From: Leuctra nigra
Lineage: Eukaryota > Arthropoda > Insecta > Plecoptera > Leuctridae
NCBI GenBank assembly: GCA_934045905.1
Contig: OW203770.1
Location: 30,694,409-30,758,408 of the forward strand
Length of the DNA stretch: 64,000 nt
Direction: 5' to 3'
The position numbers and the translations under genes are program-made. Below, in pieces: positions 20,823 to 57,332 of the stretch; position 1 is the stretch's first letter; every line of letters begins with the position of its first letter. Under the pieces are notes generated by a model that saw nothing but the letters and a program-made list of their open reading frames with translations, ran no database searches and was not told the DNA's origin.

Positions 20823-21902
20823 CTAGAGGGTCCCTTCATGTAAAACATGACCAATGCGCACCAGTGAGGTATGCGTAAATATAAAACGACAGCAATATTT
20901 GTCAGCAGAGTGCGTCGTTAATACACACGTTACGTAGTTAGCAGACCAAATGCCCAACAAAATACGTAAATGAGAAACGAAGGAAGGCAATTTAATCATA
21001 CCTATTATGGTTAATCAATTTCATAAGTCTCCAAATTTTGGAGATCCAAATGTAAACCTTGTATTAGTAAGTAAAAAATCTTAGTAAGTATTAGTAAGTC
21101 TTCATTTGTGATACCAATACATGGTGGGCTTCATTATCCGTTCCTCAGAGGTAGATATAAGAGCTGAAGGCCATTGGTTCTGAATTTCTCGGTGCACACT
21201 TTTGGATTGATGTAATCAAGCTCTATCAAGTACCTACCATTTGACTGATGTTAACAAATGCAGTTATATTGAAGTTCTCTTACACAATGGTCCATGTCAC
21301 CATTACAAATAAGATTGGATGAAGTCAGCTCAGAATTACTGGTTTTTTAGCTCACTTTAAGAAACATTGAAATTGACTTCCGCCCATCTACCTCTAAGGT
21401 ACCTATCAGTATACAATGTAAAAATTAAAAAATTGATGTTTAAAACTTATCAATAGTAACTTGACGTCGTTAACATGACTAAATACACACCACTGTAAGT
21501 AGGTAAATAAGAAACGAAGGAAAATTATTTCCCACGAAAATATATATCAACTATAACGGCTTTGGTTTGATGGTTTGATGGTTCACGGCCTCTATGTATT
21601 CAGACCAAGAGATTAATACAAAAAATAACGTTTAAAGGTTCTTTCCGTGATGACGTTTTCAATGTAATGTACAGGTTTGGACAGTTATTGTGTGTAAAAA
21701 TAAATTTGTTTCAAACTCAAAAGGATAAGGTATGCGTCTGAGATGAGTTTCGGCAATTTATGTATTTACAAAAAGCAGAAGACGTAATTTTAGACGTGAT
21801 CGGCAATAAAAGTCGGCCATATTATATAAATTGATCGTGAGGCGCGCGCATAGCGTTCCAACAGAATCACAGACAGACAGAACTGGGTAACTATAAGTAA
21901 GA
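20823..21902 (-). mobile_element. Non-autonomous Helitron, copy 3, 1080 bp
   Basis: Same ends as copy 2 (CTAG at 20823-20826; TCTTACTTATAG on the minus strand at 21902). It separates A (20822) from T (21903) with no duplication. Joining the flanks gives an in-frame GTA ATG ACC through the reverse-transcriptase gene. Confidence 0.88.
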
Positions 21903-22168
21903 TGACCGCGCTGGAGAGGAAGAACAAACCAGGGGCCATACAATGTGACTTATCAAAAGCCTTTGACTATCTGGATCACAAGCTGCTTCTGAGGAAAATA
22001 GAATGGTACGGGGTCTCAGGCGCCACGGGGCTTTGGATGTCTTCGTATCTGACAAACAGGAAGCAACGAGTGCAACTCGACCAGGACGCTTGCTCGGAAT
22101 TTGGGGTCGTTAGATGTGGTGTTCCCCAGGGGTCGATCCTAGGTCCCATTCTGTTTTCAATCTTTGTA
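21903..22168 (+). pseudogene. LINE reverse transcriptase, piece 2 of 4
   Basis: Encodes CDLSKAFDYLDH (first catalytic Asp region), YLTNRKQRVQLD and GVPQGSILGPILFSIFV, standard reverse-transcriptase motifs A and B. It stops at the TGTA that flanks the 10.5-kb element. The frame resumes at 32692. Confidence 0.88.
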
Positions 22169-22445
22169 CACAGAAAAAACTGGCTTAGTCAATATAACAA
22201 AATCCTCTTTGTCATTTCTTTCTTTGTCATTATGAAAAATTAATTTGTTGATTTCACAAGGTTTTTGCCAATATGACAAAGACATCTTTGTTAAATCTAA
22301 TCTAATTTCTTTGTTATTATACGTTTGTCAAATGTGTGGATGTTAGTGTTGATTTAACAAAGAAAATTGTACAATTCTCATTTAACAAAGAGTGTGGTTG
22401 AATTGACAAAACACAAAAGCTGATTTAACCAATAAACATGAGACA

Positions 22446-23868
22446 CAAGACAGTTGAACAACTTATCAGATAAGATGACGTCACGACGCACTAAAATATT
22501 ATTGTTACCAATTTTGAGAACCTATTTTTACCTAATTTGTACGTTCTCAAATGTTCTGGTATTAGTTGATATCGTGCTTTGAACAACTAAAATCGAGTTT
22601 GATAAAATTTGTGTATATAAAAACAATTTGACACGAAAATAAATAAATAAAAAAAGCACGTACAGACCTCCAAGTGGTCTTGTTTTATTCCTTTTTATCC
22701 CGTTGAAATAACTAGTGGCTCTAAAGACTCGGTTTATTATTTTAAATGCACCAAAAACCTTGATTCCTCTTTTGCATTGGTCAAAATTTTGACCCAACAA
22801 TAAAATAAAATCAGGCTTAAAATGACGATAATTTAATTTTTTTGTTTTTAAAAATCGGACTCCATTTGACGTTTTTATTCAATAGAGACCGCCAAATTAG
22901 AATAGGAGCTTAACGACAAGTAATTTGGCGCGAAAACGATTTCTCGGAGGTACCGACACCAATGTGCTTATAACGCGACGTGTAAACGAGATTTTGAAAA
23001 TCGGTTTCGTATGAACCTTCCTTAAGGTCCATTGAAGGTGATGAGATCCTCTGGAGGTTCCTAAAGTGAGTAGTTTGGGCCATATTTTTGAATAGACAAC
23101 TTTTTATGTACCGCTTGAATGTGATAAGGAACGTTATTCTCGTATTTTTTTTTATTTTTCTGGGGTAATTATACATCTAAATGTACACTTTTCTATGTAA
23201 ATTTCTTACAATTTAGCTCCGAAAACGCGGTTTAAAGATTTGTCATTTTGTTCATAAGCAATTTAAAAATTCCCTGTAAGAGATAGTCGAAAACAGACTT
23301 GTTTTTTGGAATATACAGCTCAAAAGCTTTGAAAATGACCAAAATCCAAGTCTCTACACCCAAAATTGAGTGAGTGTGCCCAAACTCGATTTCATGTTAG
23401 AAATCCGTATCTACCCCTGTCTGGCGCACCTTCGCCTTGTTCTCTGATCTTTGTAACGTTTGAAAAGTCGTTGAAACCTCTAAATTTGGTTGAATTTGAT
23501 CACAAACGGAAGATTTAGATCCTTGATCACCTTGCCAACAATTTTTTTATCATATTATCTATGAAAATATGATTTTTTCCCAGCATAATCTCCGTTTTTC
23601 AAATATATTGACTTTTCGAAGTGGGAAACTTGTCTATTTTCTATCCTTTACCATAATTGGAGGCACCTATCGTGATCAGCGCATATTTCTGCGTATTTTA
23701 AAGTTCTAGTGGAAATTTTAGAAAATGTTCATGTGTCAAAAACTTTAAAAAATGTGTAAATTATGTAACATTGAGGAGTTGTCATTTTAAATTTTCCCGC
23801 ATCAAAGTTCGCAAAAGTTACACTGCAGCGTTACCGTCGCCTCATGAAGGTCAGAGAAAAATTGAAAA
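22446..23868. other. Left interior of the 10.5-kb element
   Basis: No clear exon. It precedes the candidate first exon and may hold the promoter and 5' UTR. The open frames on the minus strand here show no family features. Confidence 0.35.
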
Positions 23869-24041
23869 ATGACAGTTGAGTGGGAAATCATGGTATTGTC
23901 CGTAAAAGTACAGTGTAATTTTATTGATAATTGTTTCACAAATAGAATATGTGTCTCTGAAATAATACATGAACGGGATCTTATGAATTCATTGAAAAAC
24001 AGCGTTCTCGAAATAAACGTTCTGAATCTCTTCAGGCAGAG
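23869..24041 (+). CDS. Candidate 5' exon of the element-borne gene
   Basis: ATG at 23869 opens a frame for 57 codons (MTVEWEIMVLSVKVQ..., ...LNLFRQR) up to a strong donor GTAAGT at 24042. A second frame is open over the last 60 nt (YEFIEKQRSRNKRSESLQAE) and leaves in phase 0, which would suit the exon at 24254. The correct frame is therefore not settled. Confidence 0.3.
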
Positions 24042-24253
24042 GTAAGTTGTACCTACTAACCTATCACATCTACACATTAGTCGGTACTAGGTACCTACCT
24101 ACCACTTTACATTAATTAACATAGGTGCTACCTAGTATAATACTTGAAATACTATGAATAACTTCCACCTACAATGTATTTATGATACCTACTACCTACT
24201 AGTAAATAGGTATAGTACCCTAGGCTACTTAGTACCTACTAAAACTTTTACAG

Positions 24254-24336
24254 GAGGCTGTGTTGCTGCTTTCTGCAAATGAAACTGCGTTGTGTCTGAC
24301 ATTCAAAGAGAAGCAGATGACCATTCTCCTTGTATT
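24254..24336 (+). CDS. Candidate exon of the element-borne gene
   Basis: An 83-nt stretch between acceptor TTTTACAG and donor GTAAGT. One frame is open: EAVLLLSANETALCLTFKEK... It leaves in phase 2, which does not match the phase-1 entry of the exon at 25214, so at least one exon between them is missing or the model is wrong. Confidence 0.3.
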
Positions 24337-25213
24337 GTAAGTTTTCTTTTACTACACTTCGATTTTAAGTGTGCCAATGATTAATTAGGTACATACATTA
24401 GGTAGGTATTAGGTATATGTTTGTTGGCTGTTCAGAACTGATCCAAACACACGTAGGTAGGTAATAAGTAAGTAAGTAAGTATGGTTAGTAAAATACCTA
24501 GTCGTCTGAGTATCTGAGTAGTCGCGCATTGAATAGTCAAGCCGACTGTGGCGGCCCCGACTGTCTTCACAGCCGTCTGCACAATCGTCATTCGTTCCTT
24601 CTCCTCCTTTGAGTTGCCTGTCGTCTGAGTAAAAGTTATAGTTCCTCACTTGCCGTCCCGGGACTATTCAAATAATATTCAAACAAACTAAAGCTTGGGT
24701 TCAAATTATATTCAAAATAATAGGTAGTCAGTCACCTTGACTATTCAAATGCGCGACTACTCAGATGACTAGGTATTTTACTAACCATACTTATTTGTGT
24801 GAATCCAGTCCCAGCGTTTTGACCAGTTTGAACACAGTGATCATAGAATTTTCTTGGTGTGGGTTACACATTCTAGATGCATGACTTCTGCCAGTTGCCA
24901 CATGATTTATTTTAGACATTTATATTGGTTGTCTCGCATCTTCTACGACCCAAGCTTTAGTTTGTTTATTCCGGAGGGCCATTCCACATTGACTTACCTA
25001 CTTGACTTGACTTCAGGAGGGTCAGCTGTATGGGACTCAAACCCTAGGTTTAAAATACTTAGCTTCTACTATCTTCTCATGATGCGAGTGTCAATTCAAA
25101 AAGCAATTACAAACACCTTTGTTCCGTAACCATAAACAACTCAATACCTACCTAACCTGAATTATTGTTTTGGCTAGAATTGATCAATAAAGTAGGTTTT
25201 ATCTTATTTACAG

Positions 25214-25392
25214 GTGAGGATGTAAAAGACAGCATCGAGTGGTTAAAGAACTGCACCGAACCTTGGTCCGAGGTTGAGCGCAATTGGGCAAACACTTCCG
25301 AAGTTCGGCTCCATGAGAAGAAGAGCTCGCGTTCAATTGCAGAGTACCTTGAAGACTGGCCGGTCCTCAAGCTAACACTTGGTTACACTTTG
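25214..25392 (+). CDS. Exon of element-borne gene, first of a four-exon in-phase chain
   Basis: Acceptor TTATTTACAG, donor GTAAGA. It enters in phase 1 and leaves in phase 0. It encodes DVKDSIEWLKNCTEPWSEV, then SIAEYLEDWPVLKLTLGYTL. I recall proteins with this order (a W-P-x-L-K...G-Y-x-L stretch, then D-F-x-x-x-Y-P) as an unnamed, multi-copy family in several animal genomes. The function is unknown to me. Presence inside a transposon suggests a transposon-encoded accessory protein or a transposase-linked protein. Confidence 0.65.
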
Positions 25393-25682
25393 GTAAGACT
25401 AAATTTATTATTGTATAAGTTTTCTTCTAGTTGTCTCTCAACTTGCGAACTCAATATTACTACCTACTGTTGTAATTCTTCAATTATAACAAATCAGAAA
25501 TAACTTAGATATAAGATTTAAACACGCATTTGCCCATTTAGAGTTATTTTTTATGTGTAATAAGTGCAGTACCTACCTATAATTTCTTAAATTTTATTCA
25601 CAAGTGTTTGAAGCTTTCACTTCACTTACTTTAATTTCTTTCATTGAGACCTTTATTTCATACTCTTATAATTTCCCTCTAG

Positions 25683-25849
25683 ATTAATTTTGACTTCGCT
25701 CATGCCTACCCGGGCCGAGAGATGCGCCTGTTCCGAAATTGGACTGAATTCACAGCAAAGGCGCTTCTGATCCTTCAAACACGCAGGAAAGATGACTTCG
25801 CAGAACTCCTAGCCGATCTCGAATCTGATGAACTCTCTGAAAGTATTAA
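25683..25849 (+). CDS. Exon of element-borne gene, second in chain
   Basis: Acceptor TTTCCCTCTAG, donor GTAAGT; phase 0 in, phase 2 out. It encodes INFDFAHAYPGREMRLFRNW, then an acidic helix FAELLADLESDELSES. The phase matches both neighbours. Together with the previous exon it gives a mostly helical region. Confidence 0.65.
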
Positions 25850-26349
25850 GTAAGTGTGGTATATGCCCCGTATGTTCATCCCCCAGCTCCACAAATGATT
25901 ATTTTGATCAGATTCAGTGAATTGTGTACACTTTTTTATTATTTGGTCACGAATTAACCTTTGATTAACTTTTGTACATTTAAAGAAGTGATGCGTAATA
26001 TGCGTAGCGACATAACGTGTAGGTAACTCCAGAACCTTTAACGCCTTGCCAAAGGTAAGCTTCATTCCCAAAGCCCAGGCGGCTCTGCTGTCTATACTTT
26101 CGCAGCGTCCCCAGTAATCTAAACTCGCTGCCTATAACTGAATGCAGTTGTTGTTTTGAGACATTTTATTGTGAACTTACAGGTGGAATATGCTGCAATA
26201 AATACATCACTGTTGAAATTTTCCCAGATTCTGCCTGTGTTTTTGACTTCTTTGAAAAACTGGCATAAATAAAAAATTTGAGACAAATTTCCAACGGATT
26301 TACAGCCATTTGTATTACACAATAATATTTAATAATAATAACATAATAT

Positions 26350-26765
26350 TTTGATTAAATTATTGAAAGAGTGACGAAGTTTGAAAGAATTAGAAGTTCA
26401 ACGATTAGGAATGAATTGGGTGTGGAGAGCTTGGGATTCAAGTAGGGAAGACAGATATTGAGGTGGTTTGGTAACAACATGAAGAGAATGGATATTGGAA
26501 GGATGGCTAGAACAGAGTTGGAATCAATAAATGTTGTAAGAAAGATAAGTGTTGGAAGGCCAAGTGCACAGTATAAGAGTTTGATTGAGGAAGATGTGAA
26601 GGCAAGAGGGCCTGGAAGATGGTTGAGGAGGAACGGCTGTGGGAGGATAACGACATATGGAATAGATAATTTAATTGTGAAGCTGGAGGTGGAAGAAATT
26701 GAAGAGGAAGAAGATTCTGAAGAAATTTCAATTGGTCCGGGTAGCCGGTTGAGACAATTGTAGCC
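26350..26765 (+). pseudogene. LINE 3' fragment in intron
   Basis: Encodes the reverse-transcriptase C-terminal pattern ...ERIRSSTIRNELGV (before an in-frame stop) and RWFGNNMKRMD...ISVGRPS, as in RTE/CR1-type elements (RWFGHVxRM...GRP). The frame is broken and it is confined to the intron between the exons at 25849 and 27143. Confidence 0.6.
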
Positions 26766-27142
26766 TTAATGTCTGGTTCGACAATGATTGTATGTAAATG
26801 TAATGCATATAAAATATAAATTGTCTACCCCCCTGACCCAAATGTTTTTGGAAAAAATATGATTATTCAATTCAGATCTTAGGTTTGGTATAAAAAGAAG
26901 CAATACTGTGGACTACCACAAACCGTAATGTTTCACAATGTTTTCAATTTGTTTTGTTATAATAGAAATTACATTTTGACAGCCTGATGAACTTTGTTGA
27001 AAAATTAATGAATTGTTGCTGTGTTTTTTTTAACATAATTAAGGGTTGTGAAAGTCCAAAGTACCTATTGTTTCTCTTAAGAAAAAATATGGTTGCAGGT
27101 CTCCATGCCCCTTTAGGTACAATGCTCATTAATTTTTTCTAG

Positions 27143-27272
27143 GTGCCCGAACTGTTGCATTCTTGTTACTACTTCCTACTTGTGCCGGCCTTGCATGACC
27201 ATACGTCAGAAGAAACTTTTTTGGGAGCCATCCAGTGCAGAGTCTTTGGAGTCATTCGTACATCATGTAAAG
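27143..27272 (+). CDS. Exon of element-borne gene, with CxxC segment
   Basis: Acceptor AATTTTTTCTAG, donor GTATGT; phase 2 in, phase 0 out. With the previous exon it begins KCPNCCILVTTSYLCRPC, a cysteine-rich stretch that could bind zinc, followed by FWEPSSAESLESFVHHVK. A W-x-P-S-x-x-E-S-x-x-x-F-V-x-H-V pattern is the part I most associate with the unnamed animal family mentioned for the exon at 25214. Confidence 0.65.
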
Positions 27273-28031
27273 GTATGTTTTTCTTGTTTTAAGAGTCGGC
27301 CGCACTCTAAGGTTAACGTTGGAAATGAAATTTCCTAAATATTGTCATGTAATTTTGAGCCTTTCAAATTGTGCAAAATAACTAACATGTATAGCTAATT
27401 TTTTAGTCAACCTAGGCAATATAAAGACCAACTTATAAATACAATATTTGAGCCCAAACAGACCCCAAAGCTGATAAATAATTACATTAGAGTCGACGTA
27501 AGATACCTGGTGGAAAGTTTTTAAGCTGTTCATAAGTAAAGTAATGACAAAATTTAGGACATAATTTCCAACGTTTACCTTCGAGGGGAGCGCAGTTGAC
27601 TCATAATAGGGTAGTTCCATGATAAAATCCATTCACAAACTATAATAATAATGACAAACTTGAGTTCTTTTGTCAAGCTTTATTTATTTTTCTGAATTTT
27701 GAATACGATTTTATTGATGTAAAATATCAGTGATGATATTTATAATGTTAATAAATTGTTTTCAATAGATTGCTGGATGACTATCTTGACTTTCATGTTT
27801 CAAGGTCAATCATACAATGGACGGATTTTAAAGTGGCCAAAGGCCATTACGGTATGATTTTTTATTTTTAAAATTTGCTGTGTTGTAACTTGATACTAGT
27901 TGAGCTCAAATCTATTTTTCAATTATTTTTGTGATTCACCCATCTCAAGTTACATGACCTTGAATAGTTGCCGGAGTTAAAAATATAGCTCGAGTAAGCT
28001 TCAACAAACTTCCATCCATGTCACTCATTTC
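27273..28031. other. Intron of the element-borne gene
   Basis: AT-rich, with no supported exon. A short AG-bounded stretch near 27770-27855 has stops in the required phase. Confidence 0.4.
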
Positions 28032-28467
28032 TAGCGCTGTGCGAGATTGAAATTTTTCATGTCGAGCGAGATCGAGATTATTTCATAAAAGTCTAGCGAG
28101 ATCGAGCGAGATATTTTACCTTCGAGATCGAGAATATTCGAGCAAGATTATACTTTTTTAAAAAGATTTTTTTTGGTGGAAAAGAAACACAATGCAAATT
28201 GTCCAGCCACACAAGAATAACATTTGATAAGTATGCAGTAACTGTCTGCTTTTTATATAAAACAATACAAATCAAATTTATGGACGATACAAAGAAAGTT
28301 AGCGTGCGTAGTCCTGTAAAAATAAAAAAAAAATTGGAAATCATGATGGGTCTTAGTTGATATGCTCGAGACTTGAAAATTCGAGATGGTAATTTGAACA
28401 AACGATCGAGATCGAGATGGAGTTTCATATTCGAGATTCGAGAACTTTCGAGACTTGCACAGCCCTA
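28032..28467. mobile_element. hAT MITE with CGAGATCGAG words, 436 bp
   Basis: Ends TAGCGCTGTGCGAG and TTGCACAGCCCTA are imperfect inverted repeats. Exact 8-bp duplicates CTCATTTC flank it (28024-28031, 28468-28475). Both ends inside hold repeated CGAGATCGAG/TCGAGAT words. Non-coding. Confidence 0.88.
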
Positions 28468-28475
28468 CTCATTTC

Positions 28476-28825
28476 CAAACACATCGAGATAGCGTCTTCA
28501 AATAAACATCATCTATGATTGTGCTTATCATAATGTTTATTGTACACCCTATGCTTGTCCTTGAAATTAAGGGTTGAATATTGAGTTTATTTTTGCAATT
28601 TGCTTGGTGTTAGATGCTCGATTTACTTCCAAAGGGTTGAGAAGAACAAGTCAATTACAAGGGTTGTACCGAAAGTAATGCAAATAACTTTGCCATTAAT
28701 TAAAATATATTGTTCAAATTGAACATGGTGCTAGAGTAGCTCTTCCTCTAGAGTACCTGCATAATATGATGTCACAGCTCTGACCAAAATCTCACTGGTG
28801 GACAGTTGCTTTCAGTAATATGTAA
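28476..28825. other. Intron sequence
   Basis: No repeat or exon is recognised between the hAT MITE and the family D element. Confidence 0.35.
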
Positions 28826-31228
28826 CCCAGAAAAAACACTCCGTGTAAAAATACCAGCCAAGTCTCTTTAACTATAAAAAAAAAAATAGAAGAAATCTAA
28901 AAATTCAGCACTGAAAAGGAGTGATATCAAAAAAGGAGCCAAGTCAACGAATTTTCCAAATTTTAATCGTACCATTGAAATAAAAATATCAACCCCCGAG
29001 AAATACTTAAAAAAAGGACTTGGCGCATCGTTTTTTTAAAGACACTTTTCTATCCTATTTCTATCCTTTTCTATCTTTTCTATCCTTTTCTTTTCTAAGT
29101 ATAGGAAGAACTCTACAAGTATATTTTCCTGAGTATATCACATTCATTATCGACGAATCATACTACGTTTTAATATAACTAGTACTCTTACCTACTGGCA
29201 GTTTTGGTATTTTGTCAATATTCAGAGGAAATAAACGGATAAACGAATAACGAATAAACGGAAGCGGCCTAGTCTATTCGTTATTGCCACTATTTCTAGG
29301 GTCATATTAATCAATCATACTTCTCAATATCGTGACTGAGGGAAATAGCGAAAGCGCTCATTACAAGAAGGCCGTCAATGAGATTTGTATAAGTGACTAG
29401 TGCACTGAGCCATGCTGCTCAAATAATTACTGACTAGATTTTTATCTAAAGTAATACGTTATGTAATTTATGAATTTTTTTGGTATAAAATGTTAATTAA
29501 TAGCAATTAATTACACGGCGAGAAGGTTCAAAGTATAATGCTGTAGTAGGTATGTTGATGTACCCACAAAACTATAGGTACCTACCAATCACAAACACAA
29601 CTGTTCTGTATTTATTGCTTGTAAGACAATGCTATGTTTCTTTGCGTACTTATACTTAAATTTAAAATATTTTACAGAATGTTCAATATTTAATTTGAAA
29701 GTTTTGTCCCAATTTTTCTAGGCATTTCTGAACTACGTAGTATGTGAGTGGCATAAGCTTAAGAATAGAAAAATGTCTTTAAAAAAACGATGCGCCAAGT
29801 CCTTTTTTTAAGTATTTCTCGGGGGTTGATATTTTTATTTCAATGGTACGATTAAAATTTTGAAAATTCGTTGACTTGGCTCCTTTTTTGATATCACTCC
29901 TTTTCAGTGCTGAATTTTTAGATTTCTTCTATTTTTTTTTTATAGTTAAAGAGACTTGGCTGGTATTTTTACACGGAGTGTTTTTTCTGGGATATCACTT
30001 CTTTTGTTAGTTTATTCATACAGCTTGTAGCACATGTCCGAGCAGGGACTAATTTCTTTAAAAAAATACGCCTCAACCGATTTGGTTACTATGAAAAGTT
30101 GCGTTTGGTATAAGATGAAAATGATTATCCAAGAAGAATAGCTTAAGTTTCGTTATAATCGATCCAGCCGTTTTCGATACATGACGTCACTTCCGGTTTT
30201 GAAATAGCGGCCGAATTCCGGTATAGGTAATAAGAAAACAATCTAGTTTTATCTAGTTGATACCTTCATGAACGACCATCTGAATTCCTAATCCCTATAT
30301 TTCCGTAAAATCGGTCATGCCGTTTGTAATATATGACGTCACTTCCGGTTTCATTTAGTGGTTCCTGCCGCCATTTCCGGTACCATTAATTTATTTATTC
30401 ATTTTTCACAATTGATTTTTCAAATAAATAGCAGAATGAATACGCAGGAGCTAGTTCAGTTGCAATCGTTACAGGCGTTTTAGATATATGACGTCACTTC
30501 CGGTTTCAGGAATGGCGGCCGAGAACACTGCTACCTTGAATATATAAATTGTATTGTCTATGTTACAATGTAAGTTAATTATGTACGTATTTTAAGTATA
30601 ATTTGTTGAAATAAGTTAAATATTGCGTATTTATGACGTCACTTCCGGTTTAGAAAATAAGAAAATAATATTTTTTTTATTGATACTTCATATAGATGAC
30701 CATCTAAATCGAATGGCGCTAATTTCGTTCTAATCGGTCCAGACGTTTTTGAGTTATGACGTCACTTCCGGTTTAAAAATGGCGGCACAAAAAATCACAA
30801 GAGGCAAGGTATCATCAGACGCCAAAAGAGCATATGTGGTAAAAGTTTCAGGTCGATCGGTTCAGCCGTTTAGGCTGTGGCCCTGTCAACAATGTTTCCT
30901 GATATCTGAATCATCATCATCATCATCATCAGATAGCTTTAAGAAGGGGTATAATTTCACTGTTTTCATGGCCCTCTAGCTCGCAAAGGCAAAACCTGTT
31001 GTTCCCAAATTTGGTATATGGGGTGGGGTGGGCCATAGCTCGAAATTAAGACATTTCACAACAATGTGAGATTTTCCAATTTTAAGATCCAGTAGGCCGA
31101 AAATGCCATGTTGTTGCTTACAGTAAAAGTGTTTGGTCTGCTCCTCAGTTTATTAGGCATTTACGGTATGTTGAGTGACTGTGAGTGTATAGTACGACTT
31201 GGCTGGGTGGAGCGACCGCTCCACTAGA
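28826..31228 (-). mobile_element. Composite foldback family D, inverted copy
   Basis: Two inverted arms of about 225 bp (28826-29054 and 29758-29995), then five ETS/CRE words, a TCATCA run (30911-30930) and the palindromic head GTGGAGCGACCGCTCCAC at 31207-31224. Relative to the cluster at 32853-46612 it is in the opposite orientation. It sits in the intron before the exon at 31483. No transposase. Confidence 0.75.
30175..30785 (-). repeat. ETS/CRE word array, inverted copy
   Basis: Five copies of TGACGTCACTTCCGG at about 30184, 30336, 30490, 30636 and 30758, spaced roughly 120-155 bp, several next to GGCGGC words. The word is the reverse of CCGGAAGTGACGTCA. Confidence 0.85.
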
Positions 31229-31482
31229 TCATTATCATTCTTGATATTATTTTCTTATTTTATTTGATAACATTTCTGTACTTTTTAAAATATTTTTCAT
31301 TCACATCTATATTTAAAATACGGGTTAACTATTGAAAATTTTTCTGTGAACCAATGAAACAAACAAAACAGAGTCTGTTACCTAGTGACCAGATCTATTG
31401 CAATTACTCTAAACAACGGTATTATTAAAAAATGTATTAAATAATAGAGTCTTATTTGAGCTATTCTAATTTTATTTTTCAG

Positions 31483-31761
31483 AATCTTGGTGAAATAGCA
31501 AGCTGCGTGGAACGGAAGCGAGAGAAACTGAGGGAATTCAATTTGACTCTTCAACCATTCGTGTTCATCGTCGGTCAAGAAGGATCGTCGGTCGGTCCGA
31601 CATACAAGAACATTGAGACAACCTTTGTCTTTGTAGATACTTCGACTGTGCAATACAAAGTCGAGAATTATGTGCGTATTATTTCCTTGGTCACACTAAT
31701 GGCTATACCAATGATGTTAATGACATTCCAATGTACACCAATTTTTCATATTGTCATTTAG
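31483..31761 (+). CDS. 3' exon of element-borne gene
   Basis: Acceptor TTTATTTTTCAG; enters in phase 0 as the exon at 27143-27272 leaves. It encodes NLGEIASCVERKREKLREFN, then LTLQPFVFIVGQ and ETTFVFVDTS...YKVENY. The frame runs to TAG at 31759-31761 and AATAAA follows at 31845-31850, so this can be the last exon. A donor-like GTGCGT at 31672 could instead end it 90 nt earlier. I recall related proteins having more sequence after this point, so the copy may be shortened. Confidence 0.6.
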   Translation, partial: NLGEIASCVERKREKLREFNLTLQPFVFIVGQEGSSVGPTYKNIETTFVFVDTSTVQYKVENYVRIISLVTLMAIPMMLMTFQCTPIFHIVI

Positions 31762-32691
31762 ATGTTGACTAAGGAGAATAATAATAATAATATGTGTAAG
31801 GAAGTCCCCGGGCATTTGTAACTAATTGCATCTCTTTGTAAATCAATAAATTATTGTGATTTTCATGAATTATCTTTGTTCAGATTTTTACTAATAACAT
31901 CATTATCTTCACTGTTTCCCTTTCATTGGTATAACATATATTAGGCAGGTACATGCAAAATAAACAATTGTCTTTTTAAAAAACTCACTCAGGGTCAAGA
32001 TAACCGAGGGGATGTAACCGTTTCCAGATTACGAGACTATTTCTTTGATTCGCGAGTCGGGTTTCTCGTTTAGGCTGACTGAATTCTAAATTGTTTTCAC
32101 TTTGCGTCTTAGCTGTTTGACCAATAACCTTGTTTTAGGAGATTTATTCTTTGGTTGTTACTCTGAGTGTGTGTTTTGTTAATCACGACTCTTGTGTCTC
32201 GATCAAGTCATGATAAACAAAACGCATATTCAGAGCACCAACTGAATAATCAATTTCCTGAGGCAAGGTTCTTGGTCAAAACAACAAATATCCTAAGTGG
32301 ATTCTTCAAAGGTAATTTGTTAAATGCACCAAATTCAAATCAAATTTTGGTAAAATTGACAATGTCTTGTTCAGAACAACAAAGTAAATTCTTTGTCAAA
32401 TTATACAAATAATTGTCAGATTGACCGAGAGTATTTGTCAGTTGAACAATGAATATTAGTGAAATTAACAAATTGTTTTTTTGCATTGACAAAGCTAACT
32501 ATTTTCTTGCCTAAATTTCATGAAGAATTCTTTGTACATTTGACAAAATACATAGTTCTATCCACAAAGTAGGGATGACAAAGACTTCTTGGTTTGATAT
32601 ACAAAGCTCTTGGTTGACCCTAAACGACAAACATTTTTTGTTTAATTGACAAAATTAGGCGTTAATTTGACAAAATAATTTTTAGTGTGTA

Positions 32692-32852
32692 AACGGTTTA
32701 GCACCAAACATAATTAGGAAAAACCCTATGAGGAAAGTGGTTCAATTTGCGGACGACTCGAGCGTAATTGTGGAGGCGGAGAGCATCGACGATCTGGATA
32801 CGGAACTAAAATCTACCGTGGAGGACCTTTGCAATAATTGGTTTGGCCATAA
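32692..32852 (+). pseudogene. LINE reverse transcriptase, piece 3 of 4
   Basis: Encodes NGLAPNIIRKNP, then VVQFADDSSVIVEAESIDD with the catalytic FADD box, and LCNNWFGH. The frame is the continuation of piece 2. It stops at the ATAA that flanks the family D cluster; piece 4 starts at 46617. Confidence 0.88.
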
Positions 32853-33269
32853 TCTAGTGGAGCGGTCGCTCCACACAGCCAAGTCGTACCGTACACTCAG
32901 TCACTCTACATACCGTCAATGCCTATATAAACTGAGGAGCAGACCAACTACTTTTACTGTAAGCAACAACATAGCATTTTCGGCCTACTGGATCTCAACA
33001 ATGGAAAATCTCACATTGTTGTAAAATGTCTTAATTTTGAGCTATGGCCCACATGACAACATAAACATCAAGCGACCACAACCAGTCATTCCGTTTACGA
33101 CCTAGAGGGCAGTGAAAATCGTGAAATTACACCGCTTTCATCTGCATCTTCTTCTTCATATGATTCCCGAAAAAGTTGCTGTCACCGCCACAGCCTACAC
33201 GGCTGAACCGATCAACCTGAAATTTTTACCATATATGCACTTTTGGCGTCTGATGATACCTTGTCTGTT

Positions 33270-34238
33270 ATAAATTATTTGTGCCGCCATTTTTAAACTG
33301 GAAGTTGCGTCATATATAAAAAACGGCTGGACCGATTAGAACATAATTAGCGCCATTAGATTAAGATGGTCATCTATATGTAGTATGTAACTAAAAAATA
33401 TTATTTTATTGTATTCTAAACCGGAAGTGACGTCATAAATTTGCAATATTTAGCTTATTTCATCAAATTATACTTTGAATACACATATAATTAACTTACA
33501 TTGTAACATAGACAACACAAAATTATAATTTCAATACACACTGTTCTCGGCCGCCATTCCTGAAACCGGAAGTGACGTCATATATCGAAATCGCCTGTAC
33601 CGATTATCACTGAACTAGCTTCTGTCTATTCATTCTGCAATCTATTTGAAACATCAATTGGGATAAATGAATATACAAATTAACGGTACCGGAAATGGCT
33701 GCAGGAACCGCAGGTTACATTGAAACCGGAAGTGACGTCATATATTGAAAACGGCATGACCGATTTGACGGAAATTAGCGCTAATGAATTCAGGTCATTC
33801 ATGAAGTATCAACTAGATAAAACTAGATTTTTTTCTTATTAACTATACCGGAAATGACGTCATAAATATGCTAAATGACACTAAATTCACCACGTTATAC
33901 TTTTAAATAGATATTTAGTAAACATACATTGTAAATAATTATAAATTCAAGGTTGCAGTGTTCTCGGCCGCCATTTCCTAAAACCGGAAGTGACGTCATG
34001 TATCGAAAACGGCTGTACCGATTGCAACTAAATTATGTAATTATGTTGGACTTATAATTATGAATTCAAGACAACATTATTTCTGGCCGCCATTTTTAAA
34101 ACCGGAAGTGACGTCATTTATCGAAAACAGATGTACCGATTGCAACTTAATTATGTAATTATGTTGGAATTATAAATTTAAGACAACATTATTTCTGGTC
34201 GCCATTTTTAAAACCGGGAGTGATGTCATTTATCGAAA
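33270..34238 (+). repeat. ETS/CRE-YY1 word array, unit 1
   Basis: About seven copies of CCGGAAGTGACGTCA or close variants (33421, 33567, 33726, 33848, 33984, 34101, 34217) at 110-160 bp spacing. Most follow GGCCGCCATTT by 5-10 nt, and each is followed by a GAAAACGGCTGTACCGATT-like segment. Confidence 0.85.
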
Positions 34239-36725: not shown

Positions 36726-37860
36726 ACATAAATCGAAATCGGCTGCACAGATTAAAGCTTTTTTATGCAATTATGTTGCACTTATAATTATGAATTCAAG
36801 TCAGCAGTATTATCGGGCGCCATTTTTTAAACCAGGAGTAACGTCAGATCTAGGACTCTCAGATCTTCCTAGTGATCTTCCTAGGTCAGATATCGAAAAC
36901 GGTTGGACCGATTGCAACGAAACTTAGGCTATTTTTCTTGGATAATCATTTTTGGCTTATACCAAAGACAACTTTTCTTAGTAACCAAATCGGTTGAGGC
37001 GTATTTTTTTAAAGTAATAAGTCCTTCCTCCGACATAAGTTACAAGCTTTATGAATAAACTAACAAAAGAAGTGATATCCCAGAAAAAAACACTCCGTGT
37101 AAAAAAGGCAGCCAAGTCTCTTTACTTTAAAAAAAATCAACACCGAAAAGGAGTGAAATCAAAAAAGGAGCCAAGTCAATGACATTTCCAAATATTTAAT
37201 CGTATCTTTGAAATAAAAGTATAAACACCGAGAAATACTTTACAAAAGGATTGGCGCATCGTTTTTTTAAAGACAAATTTCTATTCATAAGCATGCCATT
37301 TATATACAACCGTCATTTTTAGAATAATAGGGACACAATATCTTTCAATTACATAATATTATACATATAAAATATTTTCTATTTGAATATGTTTGCGATG
37401 GAACTTGTTGCCTATGTTTGAATAAATACACAATAGTTATCTTCGTAATATTGTTTCGTGGTCAACATATTAATTAAGTCTCATGCGTTATACCTTCTCA
37501 TCATGAAATACATTTCTAATAATCCGCATTTTATAACAAGACATTTCACAAAGTATACAGTCACATTGTATTTCTATTAAAAAATTAAACTTTATATACA
37601 CTTGACACTTCAAAAATATATAATAGTGTTCCATAGATAGTTAGTAATTATTTGAACGTCTCATGATTTCCCACAGTCAAGATCAAATTATGAAAGATAC
37701 CCTTCTAATATCACCATTATTAACAGTGCTTTAAGAATATGAGCCCACTTCCTTGATATTTAATTCTTCCACCATATTACTAATATCTATTACAACATGA
37801 AATCGTTCTTCTATCGCCATTGACAAAACTATAAAATAGCCATTACTAAAAGTAGCTTGA
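36726..37860 (+). repeat. Family D unit 1, distal part
   Basis: Holds a degenerate ETS/CRE word (36833), the segment with CAAATCGGTTGAGGCG, one D arm (37082-37275) and D internal sequence (37276-37860). The internal part is intact at 37438-37439, where the second unit carries a 1352-bp MITE. Confidence 0.8.
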
Positions 37861-38299
37861 TCTAGTGGAGCGGTCGCTCCACTCAGCCAAGTCGTACCGT
37901 ACACTCACAGTCACTCAACATACCGTAAAAGCCTATATAAACTGAGGAGCAGACCAACTACTTTTACTGTAAGCAACAACATAGCATTTTCGGCCTACTG
38001 GATCTCAACAATGGAAAATCCTCATTGTTGTGAAATGTCTAAATTTGAGCTATGGCCCACCTGACAACATATACATCACGCGACAACAACCAGTCAATCC
38101 GTTTACGACCTAGAGGGCCGTGAAAATCGTGAAATTACACCGCTTTCATCTGCTTCTTCAGATGATGATGATGATGATGATATCAGAAAAGGTCGCTGTC
38201 ACCGCCACAGCCTAAACGGCTTAACCGATCAACCTGAAATTTTTACCACATATGCACTTTTGGCGTCTGATGATACCTTGCCTCTTGTGATTTTTTTGT
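37861..38299 (+). repeat. Family D unit 2, head
   Basis: Palindromic GTGGAGCGGTCGCTCCAC (37866-37883), then a segment with TTTCGGCCTACTGGATCTCA and a GAT trinucleotide run (38162-38182). The same order is seen from 32857 and from 42008. Confidence 0.8.
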
Positions 38300-39400
38300 G
38301 CCGCCATTTATAAACCGGAAGTGACGTCATACCTAAAAAACGTCTGGGTCGATTAGAACGAAATAAGCGCCATTCGATTTAGATGGTCATCTATATGAAA
38401 TATCAATAATAAAATAATTATTTTCTTATTTTCTAAACCGGAAGTGACGTCATAAATACGCAATATTTAACTTATTTCAACAAATTATACTTAAAATACA
38501 TACATAATTAACTTACATTGTAACATAGACAATACAATTTATAAATTCAAGGTTGCAGTGTTCTCGGCCGCCATTCCTGAAACCGGAAGTGACGTCATAT
38601 ATCTAAAACGCCTGTACCGATTGCAACTGAACTAGCTCCTGCGTATTCATTCTGCTACTTATTTGAAAAATCAATTATGAAAAATGAATAAATAAATTAA
38701 CGGTACCGGAAATGGCGGCAGGAACCACTAAAAGAAACCGGAAGTGACGTCATATATTACAAACGGCATGACCGATTTTACGGAAATATAGGGATTATGA
38801 ATTCAAATGGTCGTTCATGAAGTATCAACTAGATAAAACTAGATTGTTTTCTTATTACCTGTACCGGGAATGACGTCATAAATATGCTTAATTACGTCAT
38901 AAATATGCTAAATGAAACTAAATTCACCACTTTATACTTTTAAATAGATATAAGTAAACGTACATTGTAAATAATTATGAATTCAAGGTTGCAGTGTTCT
39001 CGGCCGCCATTTTAAAACCGAAAGTGACGTCATATATCGAAAACGGCTGTACTGATTGCAACCAAATTTTGGAAATGTGTAGGTCTAATAATTAATGAAG
39101 TAAAGACGTCATTATTTTCGGCCGCCATTGTTAAAACCGGAATTGACGTCATGTATCGAAAACGGCTGTACCGATTGCAACCAAATTTTGGAAATATGTA
39201 GGACTAATAATTATGAATTCAAGACGACATTATTTTCGGCCGCCATTTCAAAACCGGAATTAACGTTATATATCGAAAACGGCTGTACCGATTGCAATCA
39301 AATTATGTAATTTTGTAGGACTTATAATTATGAATTCAAGACGACATTATTTTCGGCCGCTATTTCAAAACCGAAAGTGGCGTCATATATCGAAAACGGC
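38300..39400 (+). repeat. ETS/CRE-YY1 word array, unit 2
   Basis: Nine copies of CCGGAAGTGACGTCA or variants (about 38315, 38435, 38582, 38738, 38864, 39018, 39136, 39255, 39370) at 115-155 bp spacing, usually 5-10 nt after GGCCGCCATT. Unit sequences are 75-95% alike by eye. Confidence 0.85.
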
Positions 39401-42825: not shown

Positions 42826-42954
42826 ATTTATAAATCAGTATAATTCCCTCTCTATACAATGAAAACATATTCAGAAAGCTTAAAATTACACACATCATTT
42901 ATGTCACACATCATTTAGTTATATTTGTAAGGGATGTTTATAAGTTTTCTATTG

Positions 42955-43382
42955 TTGATACTAACTTTGAATTTTTTGAAGGTATTTGTGGTGAGTTAAT
43001 GTTTCAAAATGGTTCCGTTATTTCAGTTTTGGCAGTTTATAGACCACCTAACTTGAGTAAGATCAGTTTTGTCGGTGAATTAGAAACATTAATTGTTAAT
43101 AATAAGTTAAAAAATAATGTTATCTTTGGTGATATTAATTTGGATTTATGTGATCAGAATGATAACTGTATTCAGGCGTATGAGAGTGTGTTGGCTGCAA
43201 ATGGTTTCTATATTTGTATTCGAGATTATACAAGAGAGGAGATGCGAGCCGATATCTTAACTAAATCTTGCATAGATCACATCCTTGTTAGATGCCATCC
43301 TATCTGTTTGATTAAATCAGCTATCTTTACTACTAAAATTACAGATCACTACATGGTACTTGCTGATATAATTTTTTTTTGA
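42955..43382 (+). pseudogene. LINE endonuclease C-terminal half
   Basis: Reads SVISVLAVYRPPN, FGDINLDL, SCIDHILVR and KITDHYMVLADI, the strand, Asp/Asn and Ser-Asp-His motifs of apurinic-type endonucleases. The frame ends at TGA (43380-43382) immediately after a run of nine T. One base fewer or more would place it in the frame of the reverse transcriptase. Confidence 0.8.
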
Positions 43383-45636
43383 TAACAGACTAATTTCGGG
43401 CAACACAGGCAAATTAGCTGGTAATGTTTCCATTGATTCAAAAACTAAATTAGATGAAATAATTCTAAGTAGAGAACTTAAATTATGTAATTGGAAATCT
43501 CTTCTCTCAATTAATAATTGCAATAATTTATATGAAGCTATCATTCTTAAGTTTAAGGAATGTTATGATTTTGCATCGTTTCAAGCGCCTTTAGTTGTTA
43601 AGAAGGCTAGAAATCAAAAGCCTTGGATTACACGGGATATTCTATTTAAATTGAAATCTAGAGATGCTTTGTTCAGGAAGTGGAAGAATTGTAATAATTG
43701 CTGTATAAAGGAACTGTATAGGAAGGACTACGTTGGCTATAGAAATGTTGTTAATAAGGAAATCTTGAAAGCTAAGCAGACCTTTTTTAAGAGCTCTATA
43801 ACACAATCCAAAGGGTGCATGAAAAAAACATGGCAGGTTATAAATAATTTCATTGGAAAGCGAGGAAGGAATTCTGTGGACGAGGTGATCGACAGGTATT
43901 TGGCCAGGGGCAAGTCTTATCAGCAGGTGGCCGATAATTTTGTTAATATTTTTATCAATGAAGTGGCGCAATTAAAACATGTTTGTAATACAGTAACTTA
44001 CGATCACAACACAATATTTAATTCAGAAGCACAGTCAATGCGAATGCCTTTCATCTGCGCAGGTCTAATAGAATATATAATTGGTAAATTTGATGTCAAT
44101 AAACAACCTGGATTGGATGGCGTCCGTGTGCGGGATCTTGTCCTTGTAGCAGATGCTATAAGTCCTGTCATTGCAAAGTTATGTAATTTATCCTTTAAAA
44201 GCGGGATAGTGCCTTCTAAATTAAAAACAGCTATTGTCCGCCCTATTTATAAGAAGGGTGACCATAATAGTTTTTCTAATTATCGTCCAATAGCGATTCT
44301 GTCAATCATAGATAAAATAATGGAGCGTTGCATATCACACTATCTAACCGAATATATAGAGAAATTTAATATCATTAGTAATTTACAGTTTGGTTTTCAA
44401 AGGAATAAAGGTACAAATGACCTCCTGCTGCAATTTGCAAATTTTGTGAATACTAAACTGAATAATAATGAGATTGTTTTGGCTCTGTTTATTGACTACT
44501 CAAAGGCGTTTGATACTATTAACCATGACAAGCTCATTATTTTACTTGAAAAAATTGGCGTTAGAGGTCCTATGTTAACTTGGTTTATAGATTATTTGCA
44601 TGAACGATTAATTACTGTTAAATTGAAGGATGTCTTTAGTGTTTTAAAGCCTGTAAATTCGGGTGTTCCGCAAGGTTCAATATTAGGACCCCTTCTGTAT
44701 CTCATTTATGTTAATGATATGCTCCTTTGTCTAGAGAAGTGCCATATATTTATGTATGCTGATGACATACTAATTTTATCATCCGACTTTAATTTCGATG
44801 TTGCAGAATCTTCTTTACAGTCTGATTTCAACCAACTTTTAAAGCTGTCACATGATCGGGACTTAATTATTAATGCTGACAAGACCAAGATCTTGCACAT
44901 TTGTACACCTCAAAATCAGTTTAGAGACAGTTCAGTCAATATAATTTGTCATTCGGCGACTTGTTTGCACACTCTGAAGTATGGCAATCCTTTCCAAATT
45001 TGTGATTGTGTTATTAAAATTAGTGTTGTTGAGCAGATTGTTTATCTTGGGTTAACTGTGGATAGATTTTTTACCTGGAGACCCCATATCGAAAAGGTTT
45101 GTAGTAAAATTAGATCTTGCGCGTTCTCCATTTATCGCCTGCAATTTGTTTTGCCTTTTAAATTATTACGTTTAGTGTATTCCGCACTTGTTGAATCACA
45201 CTTGTTATATGGGTTGTTAGCTTGGGGAAATGCTTCCGATTATTTCGTCCACAGGATTGTCGCTTTGCAAGATAAAATTATTAGTACGATTGTTCCTCAT
45301 CACCTAAAATTCAATTTAGATTATAATATTTCCAGATATTATTTAGAATGTAATTTTTTACCTGTGCAATTACTTTATAAGTATCGTTTAATTTTAAAGT
45401 ATTATTTCAGTGATGAACACAAAAAATTACAAAATCATCCAGTTAATACTCGCTTAGCATTGCTTCAAAAGTATTATATTCCTCCTTGGTGCAACAAGAA
45501 TGGCAAACGTAGACTTGATTATATTGTTCCAATTACTTTCAACTTACTTCCTGATAATCAAAGATCTCATGAATCCTTTTCTAAACTTAAAGTGTCTCTG
45601 AAATCATGGCTTTTCTCGACTATGTCTACTGATTAG
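43383..45636 (+). CDS. LINE reverse transcriptase (ORF2)
   Basis: The frame is open from 43372 to TAG at 45636; the first ATG-free part is a continuation of the endonuclease frame. Motifs in order: KTAIVRPIYKKGD, NYRPIAILSIIDKIMERCIS, FGFQRNKGT, LFIDYSKAFDTINHDKL (catalytic Asp), GVPQGSILGPLLYLIYVND, FMYADDILIL (catalytic Asp pair), then the thumb/connection with VYLGLTVD and a C-terminal LLPDNQRSHE. Length is normal for the family. It copies its own RNA at the target nick. AT-rich codon use fits the surroundings. Confidence 0.92.
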
Positions 45637-46243
45637 TTTTAATTTTGTATGATTTAATTATGATTGTGTAATTTGGTAAAATTGTTACATGTAAAGAATT
45701 CACCCACTTCTAATATTGAAACCCGATTTAATTATTGTTATTTGCTATTTTTTTTTAATATGAATTGCCTTTTTTTGATTACTATAATGTGTGTATTTTC
45801 CTTTTTCTTTGTACATTTGTTTGAAACTCCGTAAATGCGTTCTATTGTTACTGTTTTTATTTGTGTGAATCATCTCCACAGATGAGCTACATGTAGCTTT
45901 GTGGAATTATGTACTTGTATTATTTTCTTGTTATTAATAAAGGAGTTAAAAAAAAAAAAAAAAAAAAATAGATATACATTCTATTTGGCAGTGCAGTAAG
46001 TTCAGCAGCCATTTTGAAAACCGAGGTGTTGCCATATCTCGGAACTAGGTTGACTGATAGGAATGAAACCTTTGCTATTCTTCATGAAAGATCATTTAAA
46101 GCAAATATATATAATACCATACGCAGATTTTTATTAGTTAACCAAATTGTCAATGGCGACTTTTTTTAAAGGATTTAGTAATTGTTCATTCGATGACGTC
46201 ACAAGTTCTAAGAATAAACTAAAAAAGGGAGTGATATCCCCAT

Positions 46244-47856: not shown

Positions 47857-50800
47857 GTGTAACATTTCGCCTCAGAACCACCAACGAATTTTCATGACCC
47901 CTTCCGATTTTGATCAAACTTGGTGAAGTTGTTGTTAAAAGCAAAAAATGAGACACGTATTTTTTTGTTTGGTCAATTTTGTCCCCCTTCTGGTACTTTC
48001 ACCCCTTCGAAAATCTCACTTTTTAATAAACCCTTATTTACATAACTGCTTGTAACTTTGGACTTGTTTGAGATATTTTAGTGATCTTTTTTAATATTTG
48101 TACACAAATGTAAGTAGTTTCATAATACGCAATGATAATTATAATTATTTTTTAAATCAGGGGTGACCAAACCAAATTTTGACTTTAAATGGGCCCCCCC
48201 AAAAAACAGCATTTTTAAAAATTCTGAAAAAAATATATCTTGTTTATCATTATTATGTTATCATTCCCTGAAAATTTCAGAGTGGAAAAATGTTTTGTTA
48301 TTTTTTTATGAATAAAAGTTCACCGTCGTATTTTGGAAGATCATAAAATATCACTCACCGTGTGGTATTTTGATATTAGGTGTGCTAAAATTATTGATTA
48401 AAATGAATCAGTGATAGAATAATGACACAATTCTATATTGATTTTGTCAGTAACGCGATATTTTTAAATAGGGGTGACCAAATCGGGAATGGTATTACAG
48501 CATTTAATGTCCACTGATGCATTCTTAATTTTTAGATTATGTGCTATTTCTCAGTACATTTTGGTGTTCGCAAACGCCAACGATTGTATAGATCTTCTTT
48601 TCAGTTTTAATTGAGAGTTCAATAAAATATATGCAATGAGATGATTATATATTTTTCTATACACATAATTTTTCTGTTTTGGTTGACGCTAGTAAAAGCC
48701 CCATAACCTCGCTAAGGTCTCAACCATTGTATGGGGTCTTTTTTATATTGTGGAAAGGTTAAAACCACAGACTGGCATGTGAGAGAAAAGGGATTATTTC
48801 GGCACTTTAACGATTTCATCTTTAGATTGAGCGGCATATGAATAGATTTTGGTGGAGACAATGGAAACTGAGACAGGAATGATGCAATGAAGTTTCTGAG
48901 TTCCAGTGATGGTGCGTGAACTCAGAAACCTTTCATTCAGGAGTCTTCCCTCGGCTGCGTAGTCTTCTTCCGTGCAGAAAGTGAAGTCGACGGCTTCAAT
49001 GTTCGACCTCGCCCACTCAAACAGTTGCAGTGGAGTCATGATCTGCGACTCGTAGGGGCGCTGCAGACTGGCGCGAGCAGCGAGCCTCTTCACCGTCCCT
49101 CCGACGCCGTCGCACGCTCCTTTGCCATGTGATGTGGCAAAGAAGTGCCACTCGGCGGCGACGCCGAAGTCCTCCAGGTGATGACACAGATTACTGAAGT
49201 TTTTCCGGTTCTTGTACTGGGAGGCGGCCCCGACGGAGAAGTGGATGATCTTCTTCGGAGCTGCGCCCTGGACACTCGTCAGATACTCCATCAGCTTCCT
49301 CTGGAATAAGTGGACTGCCACTGTATTATGAGTGAGACAGTCCGATATCACGACGAAGCTGACGTGTCGCTCCTCTCCACATACGCGATAGTAGGCGACG
49401 AACGGATGGATTGTTGCCGAGGAGTTATTCCAATGGAAGCCCTGCGCTTCATCTTGTAGAACAAAGGAATAGTTCTCGGCAAAATCGCAAACAACAAGAA
49501 ATTCTCCGGGATTCAAGTTGTCTTTCACTTCGTTCTGGAAGGCGGCTTGCTGTGTGGCGATGAACGAGTGTCGCTTCAGGGTGACGAGACCATCACAGAA
49601 GCTCTCCAGGAAGTCGTCCATGGGCTTGGTGACTATCTCCAGAGAGCAACGATCGACGGACGCCCATCTCTTGAAGGTGATGTTTTCTATCATCTTCTCG
49701 TCCATCAGCTCTCGAAGATGCTCCTTCATCCCTGAAGTTCCCGGACATGAAGAGCAGTCTTCCAGGAAGCAAGACGGAAGTGGCGGATTGCAGGTAATTG
49801 CCGCCACACATTCTTTATGTGTCTTGAGCGGCACGTCATCCTTTGAAGTGAGGTCCGCGATCTTGGCGCCGAGCATCATCAACTTCGAATTCTGATGAAT
49901 TGTGCACACACACACACTGTGCGTGCCTCTGGCTCCAGCTAGAACACACTCTTTGGGGCGCAACTCCGCAAACTTGGAGAACCCCACTTTATACTGAGAG
50001 AACTCACTCTTGAATAGGCGACAACGGACAACAACAATAGGATGGGGTGCGCCGTGTACCTGCGAGCACGTGCTAGTCTCTTCGAAGCATCCCTTAGCTC
50101 GAGCAGGCATGATGAATAAAGTCGTGGTCAAAAACATTGTTCCCCTATCAACTAACGGCATATCCCTCTATTTGTATGAAAGGTGAAATACAGAATAAAT
50201 AAGTTTAGTACATGTTTTATTTGTTTTAACATGTACTAGATATGTAAAAATTAAGAATGCATAAGTGGACATTAAATGCTGTAATACCATTCCCGATTTG
50301 GTCACCCCTATTTAAAAATATCGCGTTACTGACAAAATCAATAAAGAATTGTGTCATTATTCTATCACTGATTCATTTTAATCAATAATTGTAGCACACC
50401 TAATATCAAAATACCACACGGAGAGTGTTATTTTATGATCTTCCAAAATACGACGGTGAACTTTTATTCATAAAAAAATAACAAAACATTTTTCCACTCT
50501 GAAATTTTCAGGGAATGATAACATAATAATGATAAACAAGATATATTTTTTTCAGAATTTTAAAAAATGCCGTTTTTTTTGGGGGGCCCATTTAAAGTCA
50601 AAATTTGGTTTGGTCACCCCTGATTTAAAAAATAATTATAATTATCATTGCGTATTATAAAACTACTTACATTTGTGTACAAATATTAAAAAAGATCACT
50701 AAAATATCTCAAACAGGTCCAAAGTTACAAGCAGTTATGTAAATAAGGGTTTCTTAAAAAGTGAGATTTTCGAAGGGGTGAAAGTACCAGAAGGGGAACA

Positions 50801-55307: not shown

Positions 55308-55804
55308 TGAAGTGAACTCTTAAATGACTAGGTAGGTATAGAGAAATGACAAGAATTGAATAATAAATAGATTTAACTAGAAATGTCAAGTAAATGTAGA
55401 CTCTAGAAATGACTATTATTATTAGAAATTACTAGAATTATTAGAAATCACAAGATAAATTAATTAGTCTACTAGTTACTTTTAACCATTCTATTATAAT
55501 TTCCAGAGTCTACGATTTCTCGACATTTCTAGTCGAATCGACTCATTTATCAATGACAATAAGAAATTGCATGAATTAATAGATTCTCGCAGTTGTTAAC
55601 AGATAACGCCACCATCGCGAACTCAACACATATTATCAATTAACTTTATCTCGTTACCTACCTTTATGTTCGTTTTAAGTAAGTAAGTAATATTACCTAG
55701 GTACTTCCAAAATCTGGCAAATAAGTTTAAGCAATTTAAACAATAAGAGAGCTTATTTTTACACGATAGGAAAATTTGTATAAGGTACCTACCTCCATTT
55801 GCAG

Positions 55805-57172: not shown

Positions 57173-57332
57173 GTGAGCCACCTTCTGGTCTCGATTGTAG
57201 TGTTGAACAAGTTGCAAAATTAGTGTTGAACAAGAGCTGAAAAGCAGCTCGTTCAGTCGTGTAAAAGAGGGTTGCGCACGCAAGTGCAATGAGACAGGGT
57301 GACAGCAGTGTGTTGTTTTGGAGGGTCCATCC
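57173..57332 (+). repeat. Flank of tRNA-like repeat
   Basis: Contains GAGCTGAAAAGCAGCTCG and GGGTTGCGCACGCAAGTGC, matching the inverted block at 1390-1460. It also overlaps the start of the intron after the donor at 57173. Confidence 0.55.

Follow-up and report, generated by a model that had tools for sequence, protein, structure and literature searches.

A probable non-autonomous transposon with CMC-like ends carries a decayed, intron-containing gene fragment in Leuctra nigra

Pack-CACTA and other plant Pack-TYPE elements are non-autonomous transposons which carry coding fragments and can keep introns. For animals, a survey of 100 species (Tan et al. 2021, PMC8277862) describes Pack-TIRs (TIR, terminal inverted repeat), in which DNA transposon ends flank non-transposon sequence; 323 of 370 belong to hAT and Tc/mariner, only four (1.4%) are multicopy and none was found in insects. 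The hallmarks given for Chapaev elements in PMC4079192 are CAC/GTG termini and 3-4-bp target-site duplications, and duplications of 2-5 bp are given for the wider clade around Chapaev/CMC in PMC4079192 and PMC12730594. Here we describe a 10,519-bp insertion in a 64-kb stretch of Leuctra nigra DNA (the window; OW203770.1, C9:30694409-30758408 (+); genome of 536 Mb in 144 contigs), which is probably a non-autonomous cut-and-paste transposon whose ends are CMC-like and whose passive cargo is a decayed gene fragment with introns. Positions are those of the window unless a contig (C1, C5, C6, C9-C11, C13) is named.

The insertion interrupts the reverse-transcriptase gene of a long interspersed nuclear element (LINE). 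When 22169-32687 and one TGTA are removed, the LINE frame is rejoined and reads GSILGPILFSIFV followed by NGLAPNI. Using the LINE flank (21880-22168) as genome query, 14 matches were obtained: six at 100%, which are the present insertion and its duplicates, seven at 81-82%, which served as empty sites, and one at 73%, which was excluded from the comparison. All seven fetched relatives align gap-free over the junction 22168/32692 (e.g., SILVNDLAPNI), and several of them are nearly identical to each other, so that they are not seven independent witnesses. Because these uninterrupted relatives read through the junction, the ends and the 4-bp TGTA target-site duplication are proved, just as the initial annotation had placed them together with the restored reading.

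The termini of the inserted unit are CACAG...TAGTG (CAC...GTG). Clusters of the motif TTTGT[CT]A (at least 4 motifs within 250 bp) are found only at the two element ends within the window; there are three such clusters, the first of which starts with one motif inside the LINE. In the whole genome, the pattern CACAGAAAAAACT has 35 matches against 15 for the reversed control pattern, and 7 of the 35 are left ends of the element while 28 are not.

Copies were sought via the left end, the right end and the spliced exon chain, a search by which copies without both ends could be missed. The left 396 bp have 7 genome matches, six of which include the TGTA/LINE flank, and the seventh, on C13, starts exactly at 22169. 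The right 492 bp match at four places, namely the window, one C5 duplicate, C13 and C6. The copy at C13:35979455-35987583 (8,129 bp) is complete, with all four exons between the same boundaries and with unrelated flanks, which is the recurrence that the initial annotation had proposed to look for. It is 99.6% identical to the window (32 of 8,108 compared bases are mismatched, with 9 indel events), and its homology runs right to 32690, i.e. three bases (TGT) beyond the element end, through chance or a target preference. The right 492 bp are also matched at 97-98% by C6:37637046-37637717, an older, damaged copy on the reverse strand. Its parts correspond to 26707-27218 (91%), 31699-31759, 31762-32333 and 32337-32689; a piece with a long frame that by visual inspection resembles reverse transcriptase interrupts it. 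What it retains is part of exon 3 and the same right end as the other copies, in a flank which differs from both the LINE site and C13. The element was inserted at separate sites: the LINE site, C13 (complete) and C6 (damaged).

Not all copies are separate insertions. As a genome query, the spliced chain gave 31 matches. Near-identical copies account for 21 of these (six each for exons 1, 2 and 3, and three for exon 4), and the other 10 are distant ones at seven places. Taking the six near-identical exon sets as a sign of mobility was rejected, as five of the six (the window, C9 and three on C5) are one insertion and its duplicates. The window sits in a large recent segmental duplication with ~99.7% identity (window about 5k to 50k), extending over C5:8.25-8.52 Mb, C9:30.55-30.76 Mb and C1:64.1 Mb; the spacing between the left ends within it is 134 and 106 kb on C5 and 146 kb on C9. 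The copies at C5 (8.27 Mb) and C9 have the LINE flank in common with the window at about 99.7%, the C5 copy at 8.40 Mb has the right flank at about 99.1%, and the C1 copy the left flank at 99.5%. Window points 19k, 12k and 5k are matched at 99.7-100% in four of the six other copies (two on C5, C9 and C1); no match at these points was found for C13 or the C5 copy at 7.51 Mb. The latter has no left end (homology starts only at 23837), and probably belongs to the duplicated block, to which it was assigned by identity alone (99.8-99.9%). The C1 copy stops at 23848, so the two copies have the same breakpoint with ~12 bp of overlap. In the duplicates on C5 (8.27 Mb) and C9, the segment between 31229 and 37358, bounded by related repeats, is missing, and with it exon 4 and the right end; the C5 duplicate also lacks 42903-45967, most of a LINE in the window.

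The initial annotation had treated the whole 10.5 kb as one transposon. Its ends are exact, but 2,402 bp within intron 3 are a later nested insertion, which is absent from the C13 copy; this copy reads GTAATCATT at that point. Since C13 lacks the nested piece, this piece entered the LINE-site copy after the lineages split. It is present in the C9 duplicate and in those at 8.27 and 8.40 Mb on C5, so that the segmental duplication came later still; this is a relative order of events, not a date. The nested piece shows 231-bp inverted arms at 28823-29053 and 29762-29991, plus TATGACGTCACTTCCGG repeats, and has a hairpin followed by CTAG at its right end; it sits in an A/T site with no duplication. 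We take it to be Helitron-like. Related repeats lie at 32849-33853 and 37858-38871.

The four exons are part of an uncharacterized multi-exon animal gene family with relatives elsewhere in the genome, such as those on C11 (exons 1-3) and C6 (exons 2-4). The exon starts behind AG and the AATAAA (at 31845) of the initial annotation hold, while its intact spliced protein does not. One spare base is left at the end of exon 2 in the C11 relative; two such bases open exon 3 in both the C11 and the C6 relative, and this exon reads DARxxxFLLLLPYLCRP. From the phase of the C11 relative, the exon-2 donor of the window would be GTATTA after 25842, 7 bases before the GTAAGT chosen earlier. In exon 3 of the window, the same stretch contains an internal one-base shift, and the chain proposed earlier is partly out of frame there. 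This shift is present in six of six copies (the window, three on C5, C9 and C13) and absent from the C6 element copy. The reported CxxC segment, CPNCC, is an out-of-frame reading of the DARxxxFLLLLPYLCRP stretch, and was rejected as a zinc knuckle for this reason; the following CRPC is in frame, yet both relatives compared have S in place of its second C.

At the 3' side, the family similarity ends with GTCGAG, where the C10 relative of exon 4 (94% over 121 bp) continues with SPLDAVDL. The sequence after 31665 and up to the TAG, which had been taken as the stop of the gene, is not family sequence. An approximate C-terminal family consensus, used as query, matched two further genomic relatives and nothing significant in the window. 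Moreover, the window and C13 differ at 2 of 658 exon bases versus 32 of 8,108 bases overall, and because the exon difference matches the overall rate, this comparison gives no sign of constraint on the exons. No start exon is shown for the fragment. Judged from its sequence, the gene copy looks broken and truncated on its 3' side, and does not look like a working new gene. Farther upstream, two stretches with consensus splice sites (about 24000-24053 and 24254-24338) are candidate exons; they were left out, as exon 1 would be joined out of phase and they have no relatives, either in 16 fetched loci or in the rest of the window, and no Pfam match. Their peptide is somewhat reminiscent of RecQ helicases, a likeness which found no support from relatives or Pfam.

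The features are summarized below.

Table 1. Features of the insertion and its target site (window positions)
Feature	Position	Strand	Basis or remark
LINE reverse-transcriptase gene, left part, interrupted by the insertion	21854..22168	+	RVT_1 E=5e-10; uninterrupted relatives
Target-site duplication TGTA, left copy	22165..22168	.	frame restoration; empty sites
Transposon CACAG...TAGTG	22169..32687	.	10,519 bp; 8,117 bp minus the nested insertion; empty sites, C13 copy
Left end, subterminal TTTGT[CT]A repeats	22169..22405	.	repeat clusters; left-end genome matches
Exon 1 of gene fragment	25214..25392	+	relatives at several places
Exon 2	25683..25842	+	3' end from the phase of the C11 relative; 25849 in the initial annotation
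Exon 3	27143..27272	+	one-base shift versus relatives and C6 element copy
Nested insertion in intron 3	28826..31227	.	2,402 bp; absent from C13 copy
Exon 4	31483..31665	+	stops at GTCGAG where relatives continue
Right end, subterminal repeats	32316..32687	.	repeat clusters; right-end genome matches
Target-site duplication TGTA, right copy	32688..32691	.	frame restoration; empty sites
LINE reverse-transcriptase gene, right part (FADD)	32692..32855	+	far end cut by another repeat starting near 32849

Outside the element, the window contains a tandem array (55623-57176) in which several frames on both strands are open for 385-496 codons, and a 457-codon open frame without Pfam match at 48794-50167 (-).

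Compared with Pack-CACTA and other Pack-TYPE elements, this element likewise appears non-autonomous and has a coding fragment with introns, but it resides in an animal genome and its capture event is deduced. In behaviour it seems closest to the Pack-TIRs described by Tan et al. (PMC8277862), where transposon ends flank non-transposon sequence and multicopy cases at separate sites exist; it differs in its CMC-like ends, its 8.1-kb unit with four exons and introns, and in that no parent was found. Only at the LINE site was a target-site duplication found next to the transposon ends, and the flanks at the LINE site, C13 and C6 are different, with a distinct duplication seen at the LINE alone. 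As to a parental copy, relatives exist (exon 4 on C10), with no close parent of exons 1-3. Exons outside the element boundaries had been regarded beforehand as evidence against the unit; the C10 and other distant relatives are of this kind, but beyond the element and its duplicated block the complete chain does not recur, with the C5 copy at 7.51 Mb assigned to that block by identity. The termini at the window and C13 agree with those of Chapaev/CMC, and the 4-bp duplication at the LINE is within the 3-4 and 2-5 bp stated in PMC4079192 and PMC12730594.

In the explanation we consider probable, a transposase encoded elsewhere would act in trans, recognising the TTTGT[CT]A-bearing ends, cutting at CAC/GTG and inserting with a 4-bp duplication. 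A host gene fragment would have been captured by the element as DNA, its introns being kept, and would have decayed while riding as passive cargo, and the LINE-site copy would afterwards have been multiplied by segmental duplication. Several results weigh against non-autonomous transposition of captured cargo. No transposase was found inside the element (the rest of the genome was not searched for one), and none of its 10 open frames of at least 100 aa encodes one of the DDE type with C2C and H(3-4)H motifs, which a non-autonomous element would be expected to lack. The genome search with the spliced chain yielded no close parent of exons 1-3. At the termini, the inverted repeat is short and imperfect, with 8 matches in the first 13 bases, and the C6 copy is without a left end. 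The C13 flanks (ATATTG / TGTGTA) show no 4-bp duplication (ATTG versus TGTG, with only TG in common); TGTA, which the initial annotation expected beside other copies, is the duplication of the LINE site. Because no transposase was found inside and C13 lacks a duplication, the element is termed CMC-like and not filed as a member of Chapaev/CMC, from which its short inverted repeats may differ as well.

In the protein database, none of 386 and 568 candidates reached E<=1, and a search of viral contigs gave no result. The chain, a chimeric family query and the 10 open frames gave nothing near the Pfam cut-off. Of the two origins suggested earlier for the protein, a transposase partner is not supported, with no Pfam match for the chain or the frames, and a captured host gene fits better, with the missing close parent of exons 1-3 counting against it.

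The gene might instead be the transposon's own: an autonomous CMC-like element would encode it as an accessory or regulatory protein, and it would have decayed in these copies. The exons are present at all three places found, the older C6 copy without the one-base shift would mean that the gene was less damaged at the time older copies moved, and many genomic relatives are fragments; but none of the 13 fetched stretches (3-5 kb each) around the distant relatives contains subterminal repeat clusters, and neither a Pfam match nor an autonomous copy was found, so we regard this origin as unlikely. Somewhat more doubtful is the idea that the gene family itself is transposon-borne, with an undescribed CMC-like transposon of animals encoding it, introns included, as an accessory protein. 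If so, the unshifted exon 3 on C6 would be a relic of an element still coding for the gene, and the scattered genomic relatives would be the remains of other such element lineages. There is little chance that the chain is a functional new protein, with the shift and the new C-terminus as genuine novelty: the splicing modelled in the initial annotation does give 250 codons without a stop, but this frame is open because the shifted donor and the exon-3 shift cancel out; a stop interrupts the conserved reading, and the C-terminus does not resemble that of the family. Least credible is one old locus multiplied by segmental duplication whose gene-bearing unit never moved whole, for which the LINE flank at six of seven left ends and the four copies matching at 19k, 12k and 5k would speak, but on C13 the homology is confined to the stretch from 22169 to the right end, the flanks are unrelated and the nested insertion is missing, and the C6 copy lies in yet another flank.

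Two points from this locus concern the reading of such sequences: segmental duplication can make one insertion resemble many, and two offsetting errors can leave a spliced frame open and create what looks like a zinc motif. DNA transposons carrying genes are well documented in plants, with animal examples being sparse (four multicopy Pack-TIRs in 100 animals, PMC8277862). With its base-exact boundaries, four exons with introns, two complete sites and a damaged third, the probable transposon described here is a clean case of a large intron-containing fragment moving as DNA.
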